Source: Thermus thermophilus (GTDB lineage Bacteria > Deinococcota > Deinococci > Deinococcales > Thermaceae). From it: 64,000 nt of DNA. The stretch lies in assembly GCF_019974155.1 (NCBI RefSeq), contig NZ_AP025158.1:186001-250000 (forward strand), given 5' to 3'. Positions 21,576 to 26,969 of this stretch are shown one piece after another. Positions within the stretch are counted from its first letter, which is position 1; each line of letters begins with the position of its first letter. The notes under the pieces were generated by a model, which worked only from the letters and a program-made list of their open reading frames with translations, was not told the DNA's origin and did not search any database. Position numbers and translations under genes: made by a program.

Positions 21576-22039
21576 CAGAGGGGCCGAACGTACCAGGCGA
21601 GGGTCGGCCCCCCGTCCTTTACGTAGCGGAAGCCCTGGGCCTGGAGGAAGGCCTTGGCCCTAGGGTTGTGGCCGTAGACCACGGCGTAGAGGCGGCGCAC
21701 CCCATCTAAGCCCGCCGCGAAGCGCTCCAGGGCCTGCCGGCCCAGTCCCCGGCCCTGGTGGTCCTCCCGGATGAGGAGGAGGCTTAGGGTGGCCTCCTCC
21801 GCCTCCGGGTAGCCGAGCTTGGCGTCCAGGTAGCCCACCGGCTCCTGGCCGAGGAAGAGGAGGAAGGCGCGGCGCCGGGGGTCCACCTCCAGGGTCTGGA
21901 GGTCCCGGACCACGTCCTCCAAGGTGGGAAGCTCCATCCCGATGAGGGCGAAGTAGCTCGGGCTCAGGTGGAAGATGCGGTGGAGGAGGGGGGCGTCCTT
22001 GGGGGTGACGGGCGCGAGGTCCAGGCTCAGGACGTGCAT
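21575..22039 (-). CDS. GNAT-family N-acetyltransferase
   Basis: A 154-residue acetyltransferase of the GNAT fold. The acetyl-CoA pyrophosphate loop is 'DHQGRGLGRQALERFA' (R/Q-x-x-G-x-G/A type), preceded by the beta-4 strand 'ATLSLLLI' and followed by 'LYAVVYGHNPRAKAFLQAQG', cited as NPRAKAFLQAQGF, the usual end of the domain. The substrate is unknown. An ATG three codons upstream (22048) lies inside the -10 hexamer TAGCAT; the start at 22039 is exactly 7 nt after it, so I prefer that one. Confidence 0.85.
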   Translation of the reverse strand: MHVLSLDLAPVTPKDAPLLHRIFHLSPSYFALIGMELPTLEDVVRDLQTLEVDPRRRAFLLFLGQEPVGYLDAKLGYPEAEEATLSLLLIREDHQGRGLGRQALERFAAGLDGVRRLYAVVYGHNPRAKAFLQAQGFRYVKDGGPTLAWYVRPL

Positions 22040-22046
22040 CGCTTCC

Positions 22047-22052
22047 ATGCTA
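22047..22052 (-). promoter_or_regulatory. Leaderless -10 of the GNAT gene
   Basis: TAGCAT on the minus strand, 7 nt before the ATG at 22037-22039. The ATG within the hexamer is an accidental in-frame start. Confidence 0.6.
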
Positions 22053-22077
22053 CCCCGCGTCCCCTGAGAGGCATGTG

Positions 22078-22107
22078 AAAAAGGCCCTGGACCGGGTCCA
22101 GGGCCTT
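22078..22107 (-). terminator. Terminator of the cold-shock gene
   Basis: A perfect 12 bp stem (22081-22092 with 22096-22107). On the minus strand it is followed by a TTTTT run (22078-22082). It lies 15 bp past the stop of the cold-shock gene. Confidence 0.85.
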
Positions 22108-22121
22108 GGCCGTCCTATGGC

Positions 22122-22343
22122 TTAGCGCCGCGCGGGCTCCACCACCGTGACGTTGACCGCCTGGGGGCCCTTGCCGTTCCGGCCCGGCTCCACGTCAAAG
22201 GTGACGATGTCCCCCTCGTTGAGGGTGCGGAACCCCTTGGCGTTGATGGCGGTGTAGTGGACGAAGACGTCCGTGTCGCCCTCCCGCTCAATGAAGCCGT
22301 AGCCTTTTTCCGCGTTGAACCACTTGACCCGACCCTTCTGCAT
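22122..22343 (-). CDS. Cold-shock domain protein (CspA family)
   Basis: A 73-residue single OB-fold RNA chaperone. RNP1 is 'KGYGFIE' and RNP2 'DVFVHY', with the opening '[14 protein letters not shown]' of all Csp proteins. It binds single-stranded nucleic acid and melts mRNA structure. The ATG follows GGAGCAGT. A TATAGT hexamer at 22441-22446 implies a leader of about 90 nt, as is common for csp genes, which control themselves through mRNA structure. A strong terminator follows, so it is probably monocistronic. Confidence 0.96.
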
Positions 22344-22440
22344 ACTGCTCCTTCTTTCCCCGGGCCCGAGGGCCCGCATCCGGGGCTTAAGGGTTGGCTT
22401 TAGACCCTTGGGGTCACCCTGAAGCGACCCGGAATACCCC

Positions 22441-22446
22441 ACTATA
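22441..22446 (-). promoter_or_regulatory. Probable -10 of the cold-shock gene
   Basis: TATAGT on the minus strand, just past the dnaJ stop, about 100 nt before the csp ATG. The -35 region is weak. Confidence 0.5.
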
Positions 22447-22458
22447 CCACGGGAGGCC

Positions 22459-23511
22459 CTACTTGCGGAAGAACCCCTTGAGCCTCTCCCAGAAGCCCTC
22501 GGGGGCCACATCCTCTCCCACCTCCTCGGCGTAGGCGCGGAGGAGCTTCTGCGCCTTGGGAGAGAGCTTCTTGGGCACGGCGAGCTCCACCACCACCCGG
22601 AGGGCGCCCCGGCCCCGGCCCCCGGGCAGGGGCAGGCCCCCGCCCTCCAGGGCGAACACCTCCCCGTGGCCGGTCCCGGGGGGGATGTCCAGGGGGATGG
22701 GGCCCTCGAGGCCCGGCACCTCCACCCGCGCCCCCAAGGCCGCCTGGGCGAGCCCCAGGCGGAGGCGGTAGACGAGGTCGGGGCCCTGGCGCTCCAGGTG
22801 GGGGTGGGGGCGGACCCGGAGGCGGAGGTAGAGGTCCCCGGGTCCTCCGGGGCCCAGGTTGCCGTAGCCGGGCACGCGGAGGAGGTGGCCCTCGTCCATC
22901 CCCGGGGGCACCTGCACCCGGACCCGCTCTTCCCGGGGCACCCGGCCCCGGCCGCGGCAGGCGGGGCAGGTTTCGGCGAGGAGGTAGCCTTGCCCCTTGC
23001 AGTGGGGGCAGGCGGTCCGGGTGACCACGGTGCCGAAGAAGCTCTGGCGGTAGCTCTCCACCACCCCCTGGCCGCGGCAGGTGGGGCAGGGGGTTCGCCT
23101 TCCTCCCTCGCCGCCGCAGGCCTCGCAGGGCACGAGCCGGGTATAGCGCACCTCCTTCTCGGCGCCGCGGAGGAGGTCCTGGAGCTCCACCTCCACCTCC
23201 GCCTCCAGGTCCTCCCCCCGCGGAGGCTTCCTGTGGCCGCGGACGCCGAAGACCTCCTGGAAGAAGAGGTCAAAGAGGTCCTCCGGCCGGTACTCGGGGG
23301 CCTCGAGGTGGCCCCGGTCGTAGGCCGCCCGCTTCTTCGGGTCCGAGAGGACGGCGTAGGCCTCGTTGATCTCCTTGAAGCGCTCCTCCGCTTCCTTGTC
23401 CCCCGGGTTCCGGTCGGGGTGGTACTTGAGGGCCAGGCGGCGGTAGGCCTTCTTGATCTCCTCCTGGCTGGCCTCCCGGCTCACCCCCAGGATGGCGTAG
23501 TAGTCCTTCAT
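22459..23511 (-). CDS. dnaJ: DnaJ/Hsp40 co-chaperone with zinc finger
   Basis: It stimulates DnaK ATPase and delivers substrates. Its 350 residues comprise a J domain (1-70) with HPD at 31-33, a short linker, four CxxCxGxG zinc repeats (C129/C132, C142/C145, C168/C171, C182/C185) and two C-terminal substrate-binding domains. From recall, the DnaJ in the Thermus dnaK operon lacks the zinc finger, so this is the second, canonical DnaJ. It sits alone, away from dnaK, next to the cold-shock gene. Confidence 0.95.
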
Positions 23512-23522
23512 CTACCTAGCAC

Positions 23523-23552
23523 TTTACAAGCCCGGGGAGGCTTTGCTAAAGT
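23523..23552 (+). promoter_or_regulatory. Promoter of the aminotransferase leader
   Basis: TTTACA (23523-23528), 18 bp, TAAAGT (23547-23552). The transcript starts near 23559 and has a structured leader of about 100 nt. Confidence 0.65.
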
Positions 23553-23586
23553 GGCGCGCAATGAGGCCCTCGCGAGCTCGCCGGTA

Positions 23587-23646
23587 GGGGGTCCCTTCCT
23601 TCGGGAAGGGGCCCCCGGGGCGTGCCTCCGGGGGCCCGGCCTTTTT
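23587..23646 (+). promoter_or_regulatory. Attenuator-like leader: two mutually exclusive hairpins
   Basis: Hairpin A (23587-23599 with 23604-23616) is 13 bp closed by a C(TTCG)G tetraloop. Hairpin B (23609-23618 with 23628-23637) is followed by GGCCTTTTTG and has terminator form. They share 23609-23616, so only one can form. The gene starts 14 nt after the T run. Confidence 0.6.
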
Positions 23647-23659
23647 GAGGGAGGCTTGG

Positions 23660-24721
23660 ATGCTGCTTCTAACCCCTGGACCCACCCCCATTCCCGAGCG
23701 TGTGCAGAAGGCCCTTCTCCGTCCCATGCGCGGCCACCTGGACCCCGAGGTCCTCCAGGTGAACCGGGCCATCCAGGAGAGGCTCGCCGCCCTGTTTGAC
23801 CCCGGGGAGGGCGCCTTGGTCGCCGCCCTCGCGGGTTCAGGGAGCCTGGGCATGGAGGCGGGCCTCGCCAACCTGGACCGGGGGCCGGTCCTGGTCCTGG
23901 TGAACGGGGCCTTCTCCCAACGGGTGGCGGAGATGGCGGCCCTTCACGGCCTGGACCCCGAGGTCCTGGACTTCCCCCCGGGGGAGCCCGTGGACCCCGA
24001 GGCCGTGGCCCGGGCCTTGAAGAAGCGGCGCTACCGCATGGTGGCCCTGGTGCACGGGGAGACCTCCACCGGGGTGCTGAACCCGGCGGAGGCAGTGGGG
24101 GCCCTGGCCAAGGAGGCTGGGGCCCTCTTCTTCCTGGACGCCGTGACCACCTTGGGGATGCTCCCCTTCTCCATGCGGGCCATGGGGGTGGACTACGCCT
24201 TCACCGGGAGCCAGAAGTGCCTTTCCGCCCCGCCCGGCCTCGCCCCCATCGCCGCAAGCCTCGAGGCCAGGAAGGCCTTCACGGGGAAACGGGGGTGGTA
24301 CCTGGACCTCGCCCGGGTGGCGGAGCACTGGGAGCGGGGCGGGTACCACCACACCACCCCCGTCCTCCTCCACTACGCCCTCCTGGAGGCCTTGGACCTG
24401 GTCCTGGAGGAGGGGGTGGTGGCCCGGGAGCGGCGCGCCCGTGAGGTCTACGCCTGGGTCCTGGAGGAGCTCCAGGCCCGGGGCTTCCGGCCCTACCCCA
24501 AGGCCAGCCCCCTGCCCACGGTGCTCGTCGTCCGCCCCCCCGAGGGGGTGGACGCGGACCGCCTGGTCCGGGCCCTCTACGCCGAGGGGGTGGCGGTGGC
24601 CGGCGGGATCGGCCCCACCCGGGGCCAGGTCCTCCGCCTCGGCCTCATGGGGGAGGGGGCCCGGCGGGAGGCGTACCGGGCTTTCCTGAAGGTCTTGGAC
24701 CGGGCTTTGGCCCTAGCGTAG
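23660..24721 (+). CDS. Class V aminotransferase (alanine/serine-glyoxylate or serine-pyruvate type)
   Basis: A PLP enzyme of 353 residues. The start '[19 protein letters not shown]' is the family hallmark, and K186 in '[12 protein letters not shown]' is the lysine that binds PLP. '[12 protein letters not shown]' and '[11 protein letters not shown]' complete the cofactor pocket. It exchanges amino groups between alanine or serine and glyoxylate or pyruvate; which pair is used cannot be read. The ATG at 23660 follows GGGAGG; an ATG five codons upstream overlaps the terminator T run. Expression is probably set by the attenuator-like leader. It overlaps uppP by 9 bp at the end. Confidence 0.88.
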
Positions 24722-25489
24722 GAAGAAGAAGGCGTAGACCGCCGCCAGGGCCATGCGGTAGAGGGCGAAGGGGCGGAAGCCGTGGCGGGCCACGAAGGCC
24801 AGCATCCAGCGCACGGTGACCAGGGCGGTGGCCAGGGCGGCGAGGAAGCCGAGGAGGAGGAGGGACCAGCCGCCTTCGGGCACCTCTGGGGCGCTTTTCC
24901 AGAGGTCGTAGCCCACAGCGGCGAACATGGTGGGAAGGGCCAGGAGGAAGCTGAACTCGGCGGCGGCTTGCCGGTTGAGGCCCAGGAGGAGGCCCCCCAG
25001 GATCGTGGCCCCGCTCCGGCTCGTCCCGGGGAAGAGGGCGGCGAGGCCCTGGAAGACCCCGATCCAGGCCACCCGGGCGAGGGGAAGGGCCTTCACGTCC
25101 GGGTATTGGGCCCGTTCCGCTAGCCGGTCGGCGAAGAGGAGGGCTGCCCCAACGAAGAAGAGAAAGAAGGCCACCACGGCGTCGTTCCCCAGGATGACCC
25201 CTTTGATCAGGGGGTAGAAGAGGAAGCCGATGACCCCCGTGGGGACGAAGGCCACCGCGATGCGGAGCCAAAGGGCCCGGTCGGCCGCAAGGCGCCTTCC
25301 GTAGAGGAGGAGGACCGCCAGGATGGCCCCGAGCTGGATGGCCACGAGGAAGGTCTTGAGGAAGGGGTCCTCCTCCACGGGCAGGCCCAGGAGGTGGAAG
25401 AGAAGGGTGAGGTGGCCGGTGGAGGAGACGGGCAAGAACTCCGTGAGCCCCTCAACCACCCCGAGCAGAAGGGCTTCCCAAGCGCTCAC
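24713..25489 (-). CDS. uppP: Undecaprenyl-diphosphatase
   Basis: An integral membrane enzyme that recycles the lipid carrier of cell-wall synthesis and confers bacitracin resistance. It has 258 residues and about eight helices. Signature segments are '[18 protein letters not shown]' near the N-terminus and '[12 protein letters not shown]' in the middle, holding the catalytic glutamates, serine and arginine. An ATG at 25498 lies within a TAGCAT hexamer; the GTG at 25489 is exactly 7 nt after it and is the better, leaderless start. Confidence 0.95.
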
Positions 25490-25496
25490 GCGGCCC

Positions 25497-25506
25497 ATGC
25501 TACCAT
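25497..25506. promoter_or_regulatory. Overlapping divergent leaderless promoters of uppP and ispD
   Basis: The minus-strand TAGCAT (25497-25502) serves uppP (7 nt to its GTG). The plus-strand TACCAT (25501-25506) serves ispD (6 nt to its GTG). They share two bases, and neither has a visible -35. Confidence 0.55.
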
Positions 25507-25512
25507 GGGGGC

Positions 25513-26154
25513 GTGGAGGTTTCCGTCCTCATCCCCGCCGCGGGGAATGGCCTCCGCCTGGGCCGAGGCCCCAAGGCCTTCCTCCAGGTGGGGGGGCGGA
25601 CGCTTCTGGAGTGGACCCTCGCCGCCTTCCGGGACGCGGCGGAGGTCCTGGTGGCCCTGCCCCCCGGGGCGGAGCCCCCGAAGGGGCTTGGGGCCGTCTT
25701 TTTAGAGGGGGGGGCCACCCGGCAGGCCTCGGTGGCCCGGCTTCTGGAGGCGGCGAGCCTGCCCCTCGTCCTGGTGCACGACGTGGCCCGTCCCTTCGTC
25801 AGCCGGGGCCTGGTGGAGCGGGTCCTCGAGGCCGCCCAAAGGAGCGGCGCCGCCGTCCCCGTCCTCCCCGTGCCCGACACCCTCATGGCCCCGGAGGGGG
25901 AGGCCTACGGCCGGGTGGTGCCCCGGGAGACCTTCCGCCTGGTGCAGACCCCCCAGGGGTTCTTCACCGCCCTCCTCCGGGAGGCCCACGCCTACGCCCG
26001 GAGGAAGGGCCTCGAGGCCAGCGACGACGCCCAGCTGGTTCAGGCCCTGGGCTACCCCGTGGCCCTGGTGGAAGGGGAGGCCACGGCCTTTAAGATCACC
26101 CACCCTCCGGACCTCGTCTTGGCGGAGGCCCTGGCCCGGGTATGGAGCGCCTAG
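25513..26154 (+). CDS. ispD: 2-C-methyl-D-erythritol 4-phosphate cytidylyltransferase
   Basis: The third step of the MEP isoprenoid pathway: CTP + MEP to CDP-ME. It has 213 residues. Key motifs are '[19 protein letters not shown]' (CTP loop with the lysine), '[11 protein letters not shown]' and '[11 protein letters not shown]', then '[12 protein letters not shown]'. It starts with GTG 6 nt after a TACCAT -10, without a ribosome site. It overlaps ispE by 13 bp, so two consecutive pathway steps are coupled. Confidence 0.95.
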
Positions 26155-26969
26155 CCCCCGCGAAGGTCAACCTCGGGCTTTCCGTCCGCTTCCGGCGGGA
26201 GGACGGGTACCACGAGCTCCACACCCTCTTCGCCCCCTTCTCCCTGGCGGACCGGCTGGTGGTGGAGCCCGTTTCGGCGGGCCTCCACTTCCAGGGGCCT
26301 TACGGGCGCGAGAACCTGGCCTACCGGGCGGCCTCCCTCTACCTCGAGGCGGCGGGCCAACCCGGGGGCGTGCGCATCCTTTTGGAGAAGCGGATCCCCG
26401 AGGGAGCCGGGCTTGGGGGCGGGAGTTCCGACGCGGCCCAGGTCCTTCTTGCCCTCAAGGCCCTTTACCCGGCGGAGGTGGACCTCTTCGCCCTGGCCCG
26501 GACCCTCGGGGCGGACGTCCCCTTCTTCCTCCTCGGGCGGGGGGCGGAGGCCCGGGGGGTGGGGGAGAGGCTTAGGCCCCTCGCCCTGCCCCCGGTCCCC
26601 GCGGTGGTCTTCTTTCCCGGGCTCAAGGTGCCCACGCCCCTGGTCTACCGGGCCGTGCGGCCGGAGGACTTCGGCCCGGACCTCCCCGTGGGGGCCATCC
26701 TCGAGGCCTTGGCCCGGGGGGAGGAGCCCCCGTACTGGAACAGCCTGGAAGGCCCCGCCTTCCGCCTCTTCCCCGAGCTCAAGGAAGTGCGGGGCCGGAT
26801 GCGGGCGTTGGGGCTTAGAGGGGTGCTCATGTCGGGCTCGGGGAGCGCCTTCTTCGGGCTTGCGGAAGGCCCGGACCACGCGAGGCGGGCGGCGGAGGCG
26901 CTTGGGGCCTGGGGGCGCGCCTGGGCCGGCACGCTGGGAGGTGGGGATGCTGGGTCTGGACCTGCTTAA
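26142..26969 (+). CDS. ispE: 4-diphosphocytidyl-2-C-methyl-D-erythritol kinase
   Basis: It phosphorylates CDP-ME in the MEP pathway, directly after IspD. It has 275 residues and the GHMP kinase fold: '[12 protein letters not shown]' at the N-terminus, the ATP loop 'IPEGAGLGGGSSDAA', and the late 'GVLMSGSGSAFFGLA' motif. The ATG lies within the end of ispD and the gene ends 23 bp inside the next gene, so the three form one tightly overlapped operon. Confidence 0.95.
   Translation: MERLAPAKVNLGLSVRFRREDGYHELHTLFAPFSLADRLVVEPVSAGLHFQGPYGRENLAYRAASLYLEAAGQPGGVRILLEKRIPEGAGLGGGSSDAAQVLLALKALYPAEVDLFALARTLGADVPFFLLGRGAEARGVGERLRPLALPPVPAVVFFPGLKVPTPLVYRAVRPEDFGPDLPVGAILEALARGEEPPYWNSLEGPAFRLFPELKEVRGRMRALGLRGVLMSGSGSAFFGLAEGPDHARRAAEALGAWGRAWAGTLGGGDAGSGPA

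Follow-up and report, generated by a model that had tools for sequence, protein, structure and literature searches.

A family-wide leader with a leaderless mini-ORF and competing hairpins before a class V aminotransferase gene of Thermus thermophilus: a probable alanine-sensing transcription attenuator

In the classical trp, his and leu attenuators, a leader ORF containing the control codon precedes competing 2:3 antiterminator and 3:4 terminator hairpins. In the T-box leaders of Firmicute alaS genes, the charging state of the tRNA controls the terminator. For alanine, a single precedent of leader-peptide control, and no account of the Thermaceae leader described here, was found in the open-licence papers searched. 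This precedent is AlaL of Streptomyces lividans TK24, an alanine leader peptide (MNVIGRNIFATARATSSPVAAA*) located before an alaS gene and presented as a type not previously described, with 22 codons and in one genome (PMC8079986). The Thermaceae leader shares with the trp, his and leu attenuators the control-codon ORF and the competing 2:3 and 3:4 hairpins. It differs from them in that the usual 1:2 protector gives way to a 1:4 stem, in which the mini-ORF pairs with the U-run side, and in having usually one or two control codons and a leaderless start. As in a T-box, tRNA charging would control the terminator, but no Rfam T-box match was obtained and a mini-ORF is present. AlaL and the Thermaceae leader both place an alanine leader peptide ahead of an alanyl-tRNA synthetase gene, and the Ala-Arg-Ala-Thr of AlaL resembles the ARA(T/I) of the non-Thermus leaders. 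In contrast to AlaL as described (22 codons, one genome), the Thermaceae mini-ORF has 8–11 codons, is found family-wide and supplies the 5' strand of the terminator itself, and its main target is an aminotransferase gene. The new features are the mini-ORF doubling as a terminator strand, the aminotransferase target and the spread over the family and beyond.

The leader was analysed in a window of 64,000 nucleotides of T. thermophilus (contig NZ_AP025158.1, positions 186,001 to 250,000), where it is located between dnaJ (minus strand, 22459-23511) and the class V aminotransferase gene (plus strand, 23660-24721). The product of the latter matches Pfam Aminotran_5 and is near-identical across 353 residues to PDB 2yri/2yrr, which is named just 'Aminotransferase, class V'; no NCBIfam model was reached at that model's cut-off. 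All leader elements are on the plus strand. The promoter (23523-23552) contains a -35 TTTACA, an 18-nt spacer and a -10 TAAAGT, matches the consensus at 9 of 12 positions and is the sole promoter-like site in 22000-26500 (0.1 expected), in keeping with the good promoter noted in the first-pass annotation. The -10 to ATG spacing is exactly 8 nt in all 27 Thermus leaders. The divergent leaderless promoters overlap in 23511-23552, the minus-strand -10 of dnaJ (TAAAGT, 9 nt from the dnaJ start) lying over the plus-strand -35 of the leader (TTTACA). By eye, this layout seems retained in relatives.

A leaderless mini-ORF, ATG AGG CCC TCG CGA GCT CGC CGG TAG (MRPSRARR*), extends from 23561 to 23587 and opens 8 nt past the -10. 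The proposed regulatory Ala codon GCT is at 23576-23578. Codons 2-4 provide the 5' strand (region 1, 23565-23572) of P1, a covarying terminator stem that encloses the leader and whose 3' strand (region 4) is at 23629-23636 in the unmasked fold. The last base of the stop codon is the first base of P3 (regions 2:3, 23587-23616), the proposed antiterminator, identified by sequence, fold and covariation. P3 is a 13-bp hairpin with a UUCG loop, GGGGGTCCCTTCC-TTCG-GGAAGGGGCCCCC. P4 (regions 3:4, 23609-23637), the alternative terminator, is predicted to form when a ribosome on the stop codon masks region 2. The U-run (TTTTT, 23642-23646) and the ribosome-binding site of the aminotransferase gene (GGGAGG, 23649-23654) follow. 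P3, the overlapping P4 with its U-run and the adjoining ribosome site had been described in the first-pass annotation and were all recovered; the mini-ORF, the long-range stem P1 and the leader copies before alaS had been missed. Taken alone, P4 with TTTTT is not significant (4 such sites in 22000-26500, 3.1 expected), and folding of the 86-nt leader gives a z of only -1.57. It is conservation, and not lone fold statistics, that lifts the leader above chance.

The leader was sought in other Thermus genomes, as had been proposed, and in the rest of the family. The DNA search of 50 family genomes returned one strong site per Thermus genome (27) and otherwise short weak matches among those listed; the aminotransferase gene was present in all 27. 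Among the same listed matches, non-Thermus leaders were invisible to the DNA search, except weakly in G028 (E 0.016). The 23 non-Thermus family genomes contained 21 aminotransferase orthologues, G040 and G044 giving just a paralogue. All 21 are preceded by the leader with a different sequence; one of them has ATGCGATTCTCCGCTCGAGCTACCCTCTAA, a hairpin and AGCGGAGAATCTTTTT, in that order. The leader was present at every orthologous locus found in the family (48/48, i.e. 27 Thermus and 21 others, counts that depend on the leader selection rules). The covariance model R1 was built from 19 non-Thermus leaders only and applied to 111 genomes from the phylum. It found all 27 Thermus leaders and gave the window a score of 46.9 bits (per-genome E 2.3e-10). 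In the unfitted MAFFT alignment A2 (19 rows), two-sided changes were found in 12 of 32 pairs, versus 7.4 after shuffling (3 of 500). In A4 (56 distinct rows), which was fitted to the model and is biased towards its structure, both partners vary in 28 of 32 pairs, including 12 of 12 in P3, versus a shuffled mean of 17.0 (0 of 500). When the A4 partners were slid by 1-3 columns, the paired share dropped from 90.9% to at most 60.2%.

In each of the 48 leaders the mini-ORF has an in-frame ATG, CGA GCT is invariant and the stop codon (TAG 28, TAA 17, TGA 3) follows CGA at a distance of exactly four codons and adjoins P3, although the length of the mini-ORF varies. The codon preceding CGA encodes Ala in 20/20 leaders from genera other than Thermus and that of L061, by four synonyms (GCT 14, GCA 4, GCC 1, GCG 1). 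The commonest Thermus peptide is MRLLRAIR* (20/27); MRPSRARR* is found in the window and one close relative. Every codon change seen in Thermus relative to MRLLRAIR alters the amino acid, so that the constraint on these codons from RNA pairing is no weaker than that from the peptide. The changes preserve pairing to the strand just 5' of the U-run: relatives pair GGCTCCTGCG or GGCCCTCGCG with CGCGGGGGCC, and the window retains 8 pairs. Inserts are located within the mini-ORF of L062, L064, L068, L078, L125, L126 and L128, several of them bounded by CTCGAG and some supplying a new ATGAAACCC start; those of L080 and L081 are downstream.

R1 also found the leader before alaS, the alanyl-tRNA synthetase gene, in 14 of the 23 non-Thermus family genomes (E 2e-16 to 0.010), as a second copy in 13 and as the sole copy in G044; no R1 match before alaS was obtained in the remaining nine. 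The next gene is alaS for 14/14 of these copies, and TIGR00344 was confirmed on two of them (913 and 890 bits). Because a model built without Thermus finds the leader beside alaS, alanine is the signal indicated, and not serine, glycine or glyoxylate, which had been guessed from the gene. By extension, the aminotransferase would make or use alanine. In 10 of the 14 alaS copies, a mini-ORF with at least one Ala codon ends immediately upstream of P3. The peptides are MRHPARATR, MRRPARATR, MRFSRATR, MRLSVRATR, MKPLNPARATR, MKPLYSARAAL, MRASASAAS, MKPLSFARATR, MKPSSFAQATR and one ending PFPFARATH that has several possible starts. In MRASASAAS* and MKPSSFAQATR*, CGA is lost and Ala is retained. The other four copies (L129, L132, L133, L134) contain no Ala mini-ORF with start and stop. 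In Thermus, no such leader or attenuator was found within 170 nt upstream of alaS (27/27), and alaS is itself leaderless. A second, partial alaS-family match is present in the genome of the window (G000:C1:1880127-1880939, 128.7 bits, below the cut-off).

On the attenuator anatomy, conservation, covariation, alaS association and masked folds observed here, the leader is read, with a probability of about 0.7, as a ribosome-mediated transcription attenuator sensing alanyl-tRNA supply. The transcript would begin at or about 1 nt before the AUG, and a ribosome would load on this leaderless 5' end and translate the 8-codon peptide. When Ala-tRNA is short, the ribosome would stall with GCU in the A site and cover region 1. 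Region 2 would then pair with region 3 as the UUCG hairpin, which probably wins by being made first, and region 4 would be deprived of strong partners, so that RNA polymerase would read into the aminotransferase gene. When Ala-tRNA is plentiful, the ribosome at the stop codon would cover region 2 and the 3:4 terminator would form. With no ribosome, 1:4 (P1) would form. Both 3:4 and 1:4 are expected to end transcription.

Masked folds were calculated with a ribosome footprint from -13 to +13 of the P site, at 37 °C and for naked RNA. For the window, P1 is predicted to be closed without a ribosome (-60.8 kcal/mol). With GCU in the A site, P3 is intact and both long terminator stems are gone, while a weaker interrupted hairpin persists before the U-run. 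With the ribosome at the stop codon, P3 is lost and the 23609-23637 terminator is formed. Over the 48 leaders, P1, P2 and P3 were all present in the unmasked folds of trimmed leaders (48/48), and P1 and P3 in 47/48 full-length ones, L080 being disturbed by its downstream insert. The mean probability of upstream pairing for the 3' strand of P1 was 0.96 without a ribosome, 0.82 at the stop and 0.51 in the GCU stall, an order that holds in 43/48 leaders. At the stop, P4 forms in 27/27 Thermus leaders and 19/21 others, and P3 is kept in 0/27 and 4/21, respectively. The overlap of the two hairpins, on whose conservation the first-pass annotation had staked its reading, is kept in relatives: with a ribosome simulated at the stop, P3 is lost and its 3' arm pairs instead with the strand preceding the U-run in all 27 Thermus leaders. 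Under the stall mask, P3 is kept in 22/27 Thermus leaders and 19/21 others (41/48), the predicted minimum favouring other pairs in L006, L014, L021, L023, L027, L061 and L069. At least six pairs between the P3 3'/linker region and the strand before the U-run persist under this mask in 17/27 Thermus leaders and 10/21 others. These predictions mostly agree with attenuation, although some leaders lack a clean stalled state. Folds, covariation and the position of the stop codon all point to mutually exclusive hairpins placed for a decision by the ribosome. The antiterminator role that had been given to P3 is favoured by the comparative anatomy and by most masked folds, with the exceptions among the stalled ones. 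The earlier attenuator reading holds as conserved anatomy; the switch is likely to be the ribosome-read mini-ORF, with P1 as a further terminator and with the sensing of alanyl-tRNA by a ribosome as the most probable trigger.

The leader extends beyond the family. Among more distant members of the order, four of six aminotransferase orthologues have it, with the mini-ORFs MLLTARA* (L173, L174), KLTARAR* from a GTG (L177) and MRLFVRATP* (L135/L172); L175 and L176 are without it. One of ten alaS loci at this level has it (MKHTARA*, L199) and nine do not; no leader was seen at the other f3 alaS loci L203-L205, i.e. 1/4 counting L199. In another phylum, a conserved mini-ORF MxYTVGARA(I/M)CVELEN* with GCGCGAGCTAT precedes a second AlaRS gene in Streptomyces hyaluromycini and two relatives (3/3 close orthologues). 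In these loci (L346-L348) the letters of GCGCGAGCTAT are identical to the Thermaceae core. In the 11.5-Mb S. hyaluromycini genome, GCNCGAGCTAYC occurs three times and the reversed control pattern 26 times. The predicted shape of this Streptomyces leader differs from that of the Thermaceae. At actinobacterial alaS loci, the motif and an Ala mini-ORF were found together in 0/29 loci of the phylum and 0/27 further Streptomyces loci: L326, L332, L333 and L342 have Ala-rich short ORFs without the motif, L334 and L372 have the motif without the ORF, and L356 has an ORF with ARA 487 nt away. The Thermaceae leader and those of Streptomyces (AlaL and the second AlaRS) may be either homologous or convergent.

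The codon pair CGA-GCU calls for comment. In six genes, GCU makes up 10 of 282 Ala codons and CGA 2 of 209 Arg codons, so both are rare, and their invariance exceeds the needs of an Ala sensor alone; some alaS copies use other Ala codons. It is conceivable, if unlikely, that the rare pair is itself a dedicated alanine sensor, beyond hungry-codon stalling, kept before alanine genes in two phyla. Such a sensor might act through codon-pair or Ala-Arg-Ala nascent-chain arrest, or might be an RNA core with a double reading, as codons and as a folded structure, a suggestion of the same tentative standing. The same invariance despite rare codons would be expected if an alanine-binding riboswitch or an AlaRS-binding RNA used the CGAGCU internal loop as sensor and the mini-ORF were incidental. 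The terminator stem around the core resembles a riboswitch, and identical nucleotides recur before the second alaS in Streptomyces. This explanation is nevertheless improbable. Start and stop remain in frame despite length changes, and L127 and L131 lose CGAGCU while their Ala codons stay. With the repeat insert, the frame from the promoter-proximal start is open to the usual stop in L062 (from a GTG), L078 and L126, though not in L064 and L068, where the insert breaks it and a new ATG serves. The closed form is also predicted to be very stable already without a ligand. As the first-pass annotation had found no known T-box or riboswitch core, so no Rfam match was obtained in the window at the gathering threshold; at E up to 5, four leader matches were far below threshold and none was a T-box.

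Two readings in which alanine is not sensed by the ribosome are weaker still. In the first, the leader would be a plain 5' UTR terminator or a translational device masking the Shine-Dalgarno (SD) sequence, with no regulation by the mini-ORF. This is very unlikely given the conserved alternative pairings and the conserved mini-ORF whose stop abuts the hairpin. The U-runs speak both ways: outside Thermus, 19/21 leaders have at least 4 T, whereas several Thermus leaders are poor, with at least 4 T in 11/27, 3 T in 12 and fewer in 4 (16/27 below four) by a strict measure that undercounts runs lying inside the stem. Some folds also show local pairing near the SD, and terminator-side pairs survive the stall mask in many leaders. 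In the second, a leader-peptide attenuator would respond to arginine, or to the slow decoding of the rare CGA, instead of alanine. CGA is invariant in the 48 aminotransferase leaders and Thermus mini-ORFs hold two to four Arg codons for one Ala codon, but the 14 further copies before alaS and the two alaS leaders that keep Ala without CGA make this the least probable of the explanations considered.

The alanyl-tRNA attenuator would place alanine leader-peptide control in a small switch that a model thermophile shares with its whole family, and would tie the supply of alanine to an aminotransferase whose structure is solved (2yri) but which is otherwise uncharacterised. It would also exemplify a leader whose coding sequence doubles as a terminator strand. 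An attenuator of eight codons with a leaderless start in a thermophile would be a convenient test case.

Some minor matches were recorded during the searches. The weak R1 matches L136, L137 and L138-L140, the last being three of eight weak Thermus matches, were judged spurious, as they are coding-like or a plain palindrome with no alanine gene. R1 also gave two antisense matches, in G034 and G037. In the uncultured Deinococcales family f5, 27 of 35 alaS loci were read. L208, L209, L211 and L215, flagged by the script filter, were judged unconvincing. L229 (MTVLLPTQAA*) and L221 (...PERAI*) were picked by eye; L229 and L221/L233 (MMCSINTQPERAI*) are candidate Ala leaders 5' of alaS, followed by terminator-like hairpins. 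Upstream of alaS in L184-L186 and L188, the 3' part of the leader (TTTGCC...TTTT.TTATGCTG) is retained without a recognisable Ala mini-ORF, as if the leader had decayed or been rebuilt.
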